The notes under the pieces: generated by a model
What the model saw: the letters and a program-made list of their open reading frames with translations, nothing else
Databases searched by the model: none
What the model was told of the DNA's origin: nothing
Origin: a virus
Virus record (IMG/VR): IMGVR_UViG_3300025421_000072
Span: 1 to 23,040 of that record
DNA: 23,040 nt
Reading direction: 5' to 3' (one strand)
Shown: one piece after another, positions 4,088 through 4,159 of the stretch
Layout of the letters: the number at the start of each line of letters is the position of its first letter
Numbering within the stretch: the stretch's first letter is position 1
Made by a program: the position numbers and the translations under genes

Positions 4088-4159
4088 TTATTTATTCATT
4101 ACGTACATTGTTACTTCAAATCCGAAACGCATTTCTGTAGCTGCTGGTTTTGTCCACAT
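4088..4159 (-). CDS. pqqA: PqqA, pyrroloquinoline quinone precursor peptide
   Basis: A 23-codon gene on the minus strand, ATG at 4159 and TAA at 4088-4090, with an AAGGA site about seven bases upstream. The peptide starts MWTKPAATEM and contains FGFEVTMY. The Glu15 and Tyr19 of the E-x3-Y core are the two side chains that PqqE joins, with PqqD as chaperone, to build PQQ. Its length equals that of typical proteobacterial PqqA (22-29 residues). No other pqq gene is in the window, so the peptide would have to be processed by host PqqB-E. PQQ serves periplasmic methanol and sugar dehydrogenases. The gene has its own promoter and terminator and opposes its neighbours, as a phage moron would. Identification is strong by motif; the role in infection is inferred. 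Confidence 0.92.
   Translation of the reverse strand: MWTKPAATEMRFGFEVTMYVMNK

Follow-up and report, generated by a model that had tools for sequence, protein, structure and literature searches.

Can a gene of only 23 codons, found in a virus of presumed methylotrophs, encode the precursor peptide of the cofactor PQQ, and if so, what does a phage gain from carrying it? The question arose from a 23,040-nucleotide stretch of the IMG/VR virus record IMGVR_UViG_3300025421_000072 (positions 1 to 23,040, hereafter the window). A first-pass annotation made from the sequence alone had proposed there a phage-borne pqqA that supplies the limiting substrate to host PQQ enzymes. Our analysis confirmed the gene and supported this interpretation. 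The physiological part, that PqqA is limiting and that methanol oxidation is sustained during infection, remains an inference. The following features of the window are relevant:

4088-4159 (minus strand), pqqA, 23 codons plus stop, encoding MWTKPAATEMRFGFEVTMYVMNK, with Glu15 and Tyr19 present
4167-4171 (minus strand), ribosome-binding site AAGGA
4181-4196 (minus strand), leader hairpin CAAGCAATTTTGCTTG near the predicted transcript start
4200-4227 (minus strand), possible sigma-70 promoter TTGTCT-16-TATTAC, read by eye
4231-4248 (minus strand), operator-like element (ATAGAGAAAATCATTAAA read on the plus strand), 89 to 72 nt upstream of the start codon
3950-3975 (minus strand), intrinsic terminator AAGCCCCTTCGGGGGCTT followed by TGCTTTTT
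3332-3844 (plus strand), neighbouring gene without family match
4366-4923 (plus strand), neighbouring HNH/endonuclease-VII-like gene (phrog_3322, E 2e-27)
20258-21745 (plus strand), terminase large subunit (phrog_38, E 1e-111)

Identity and genomic context

The peptide was recognized as PqqA by two profiles. Pfam PF08042 scored 40.2 bits (E 1.5e-11) in a six-frame search and 42.4 bits on the peptide itself (cut-off 21.1), whereas the NCBIfam equivalog TIGR02107 scored 40.4 bits (cut-off 20), both about double the curated cut-offs. Glu15 and Tyr19, the residues of the PqqE crosslink, showed the E-x3-Y spacing. A PqqA-shaped DNA pattern occurred once in the window and in 0 of 100 shuffled versions. 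No relatives of the peptide were found in the PDB.

The surrounding genome is that of a phage, with terminase large and small subunits, helicase, primase, exonuclease and endonucleases. The portal gene named in the first-pass annotation rests on that annotation only, since the frame following the terminase large subunit (TerL), from 21805, was not searched against families. Three tandem paralogous proteins of about 200 aa, 39-41% identical to each other, were also noticed at 5951-6559, 6694-7305 and 7479-8039 (plus strand); the first has no Pfam match. No tRNA was detected in the window, giving no indication of a tRNA-linked insertion.

Could pqqA be a stray host fragment joined to the phage genome by contamination or chimeric assembly? 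The coding sequence is 97% identical at the nucleotide level to a Methylophilaceae pqqA, and no second contig was found across the pqqA junction, although near-identical records may be left out of that scan. A contig from another dataset matched the window at 100% protein identity from about 9.8 kb to 22.8 kb but did not reach pqqA. However, the same unit is present in complete genomes of cultured lytic methylophages and in many viral contigs, and the leader of the window's gene resembles those of the Manatee phage and of two viral pqqA loci, L029 and L098. We therefore rejected this explanation as very unlikely.

Occurrence in other phages

A tblastn search over 50,697 phage records at E up to 10 returned twelve hits: nine genome records of cultured Methylophilales phages from five lineages (Venkman, P19250A, MEP301, MEP401, MEP402 and four Melnitz records), one spring podovirus with the identical peptide, and two records named 'Acinetobacter phage'. 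The one of these two that was opened (MD-2021a, CAKLQF020000010.1) holds ppk and pqqBCDE in the stretch read and is probably bacterial chromosome, so these hits were set aside. The cultured Pelagivirus-type methylophages MEP431-434 were not among the hits, although it is not known whether the collection includes them. In addition, pqqA was found in more than 200 IMG/VR contigs. These contigs may include some host DNA, although the cultured phages show the same features. One of them, the jumbo-phage sized IMGVR_UViG_3300023174_000036 (356,312 bp), also carries a single pqqA. Further viral contigs encode PqqA of other host types (for example MKNKWKKPEIKEISVGLEINCYACAEI and MWIKPSYENVRLGFEITMYFKTR), mostly without the Methylophilaceae element described below, and phage pqqA may extend beyond methylophages.

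The first-pass annotation had supposed that the gene is too short for usual gene callers and is easily missed in other phages, and this was confirmed. In none of the nine cultured records was it annotated as PqqA. The five small isolate records have no feature over it, whereas Melnitz (3961-4056) and Manatee (2067-2195) carry an opposite-strand 'hypothetical protein' there, which is likely spurious.

The gene appears to be maintained for its product. In 240 viral matches in which codons 15 and 19 were left free, all 240 encode Glu15 and Tyr19, and a Shine-Dalgarno-like core precedes each of 166 distinct leaders. Synonymous sites are saturated, while dN/dS is 0.12 at codons not fixed by the search pattern, as determined on distinct coding sequences without a phylogeny. 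Presence of the gene, on the other hand, is variable. Judged by TerL, pqqA is in three of four Venkman-type contigs of at least 30 kb and in two of six MEP401-type contigs, but in none of 18 records with window-like TerL, not all of which cover the region. A Venkman relative (G060) has the two flanking genes at about 74% identity with some 25 bp between the aligned blocks, where Venkman has about 195 bp holding the unit, a near-clean absence. For the window no such clean comparison was obtained, since its relative with 81% TerL identity (G040) differs over about 9 kb there. This patchiness could be taken as a sign of a neutral passenger, but the purifying selection, the retained operator, ribosome-binding site and terminator, and the recurrence in unrelated phage lineages make a lack of function in infection very unlikely.

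Each of 33 virus records, including the five cultured methylophage lineages, has exactly one PqqA match. PqqE was over the cut-off in none of these 33 records but in both host genomes tested, and methanol dehydrogenase was over the cut-off in none of 41 virus records; PqqB, PqqC and PqqD were not searched for. Methylophilaceae themselves carry 1-12 pqqA copies, with 1-2 PqqE in the two genomes checked, in comparison with a published count of 3-12 pqqA and normally one pqqBCDE set (PMC4109929). The phages therefore add one more dose of the part that the hosts already multiply. That both respond to the demand for a consumed precursor is our inference.

A substrate-like peptide carried without these other genes could also act as a decoy or inhibitor, titrating PqqD/PqqE and reducing PQQ synthesis so as to divert the host's metabolism. 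An inhibitor would, however, be expected to lose or alter the reactive residues, whereas both are kept in all 240 matches and the peptide is often identical to that of the host: 45 host loci and 32 viral loci share the exact sequence of the window. Since the hosts themselves also multiply this gene, we consider the decoy hypothesis improbable.

The upstream element

Leaders of host and viral pqqA looked alike by eye. A width-18 motif was therefore learned by expectation maximization on 106 distinct bacterial Methylophilaceae pqqA leaders only (CTAAGTAAAATCATGAG; consensus CTAAGTAAAATCATGAGG), and was fitted in 93% of them. At 9 bits or more it occurred within 200 nt upstream of 65 of 90 Methylophilaceae-like viral pqqA genes (72%), whereas elsewhere in the same viral contigs there were 23 sites in 716,565 positions, or 0.006 expected per leader. 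Control leaders of other ORFs gave 1.2%. An independent viral set (MWT[TS]P type), not seen when the motif was noticed, gave 54 of 76 (71%) against 0.009 expected (29 sites in 602,415 positions). The motif sets were thinned at 75% leader identity and not corrected by a phylogeny. Viral leaders with other PqqA types mostly lacked the element, with 2 of 15 having it. Among the cultured phages, Melnitz scored 18.5, Venkman 17.9, P19250A 16.7 and MEP301 13.8 bits, while MEP401/402 had none. The window scored 11.1 bits at 4231-4248. A second site, at 13219-13236 (12.8 bits), lies inside the primase gene (12475-13305) and is probably due to chance.

Is this element specific for PQQ genes, or is it a general Methylophilaceae promoter or regulatory element that happens to precede pqqA often? 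In Methylophilus methylotrophus, a pattern search with up to one mismatch found six sites, five upstream of pqqA copies and one upstream of pqqB. The low background in the viral contigs likewise speaks for specificity. However, in two Methylotenera-type genomes exact sites (L556:1501 and L554:1501) precede a glycine-zipper outer-membrane protein gene, so the regulon may be wider than PQQ synthesis, and a few one-mismatch sites lie away from pqqA. The general-element explanation remains possible but unlikely. The element is a candidate cis-element for PQQ regulation in Methylophilaceae, for which a limited literature search turned up no described regulator or motif.

Architecture of the unit

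Viral pqqA leaders as a set folded better than control leaders (p 3e-7), and a terminator followed 82 of 161 viral pqqA genes against 13 of 159 control ORFs (p 6e-18). In the window one terminator was found where 0.2 were expected, at 3950-3975. The whole pqqA transcript of the window, by contrast, did not fold better than shuffled sequences (z 0.31), and no Rfam element was detected in the window. The promoter at 4200-4227 is tentative: it is conserved in the related leaders L029 and L098, but the consensus scan did not list it. The neighbours on both sides run on the opposite strand. Taken together with its absence as a unit from G060, pqqA appears as a compact moron composed of operator, promoter, structured leader, ribosome-binding site, 23 codons and terminator.

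Discussion

The explanation we favor, with a probability of roughly 0.75, is that of a phage-carried pqqA moron acquired from Methylophilaceae. It would make PqqA, the stoichiometric precursor peptide of PQQ, and no PQQ enzyme was found alongside it as far as searched. Host PqqD/PqqE and the other Pqq enzymes would crosslink Glu15 and Tyr19 and trim the peptide to PQQ. Enzymes made before infection persist, but the peptide is consumed molecule for molecule, so that it is the one component worth re-supplying. The extra PQQ would keep PQQ-dependent methanol dehydrogenases active during infection. Translation, processing, rate limitation, regulator binding and benefit to the phage are inferred, as is the window's host, deduced from the match of its pqqA to the Methylophilaceae gene and from the shared operator.

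Since the upstream element matches the one found at the hosts' own pqqA copies and at pqqBCDE, the phage gene is predicted to answer to the host's PQQ regulator. We consider it somewhat more likely than not that this reflects a general substrate-dosage strategy of methylophages, in which phage pqqA is switched as one more member of the host regulon, hidden by its 23-codon size. If right, a widespread group of aquatic phages manipulates the cofactor supply of methanol oxidation through a gene that standard annotation skips, even in model phages such as Venkman, Melnitz, P19250A and MEP301-402.

Phage-borne pqqA as such is not new. It was reported in 2020 with the same functional idea from Lake Baikal contig VP_266 (PMC7678222), and pqqA, pqqE and pqqD are listed as viral genes in PMC13188868. 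The papers on MEP301 and MEP401/402 do not mention PQQ, and the Melnitz paper names it only as a medium supplement. The presence across cultured methylophages, the solo-substrate pattern and the shared host operator appear to be new, as we did not find them described in the literature searched, which included neither supplements nor the paper on P19250A.

With the PqqA of Methylophilaceae (PF08042, TIGR02107), the phage gene shares the sequence, Glu15 and Tyr19, the occurrence as standalone copies, the upstream element and the terminator. It differs in being carried by phages, in one copy per genome and without PqqE or methanol dehydrogenase in the records tested, and in an operator that lies nearer the start codon (median −91 to −95 against −126 in hosts). 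The Lake Baikal contig VP_266 likewise has a phage-borne pqqA with the same proposed role in methanol oxidation, but there a single T4-like metagenomic contig carries it beside methanol dehydrogenase, whereas here a solo gene was observed across five cultured lineages and more than 200 contigs. As for classical AMGs and morons, of which psbA in cyanophages would be an example, the resemblance lies in a host-derived gene thought to replenish a short-lived host component from an independent transcription unit. Phage pqqA, however, encodes a consumed substrate rather than an enzyme or photosystem protein, with a host pathway-specific operator apparently retained.
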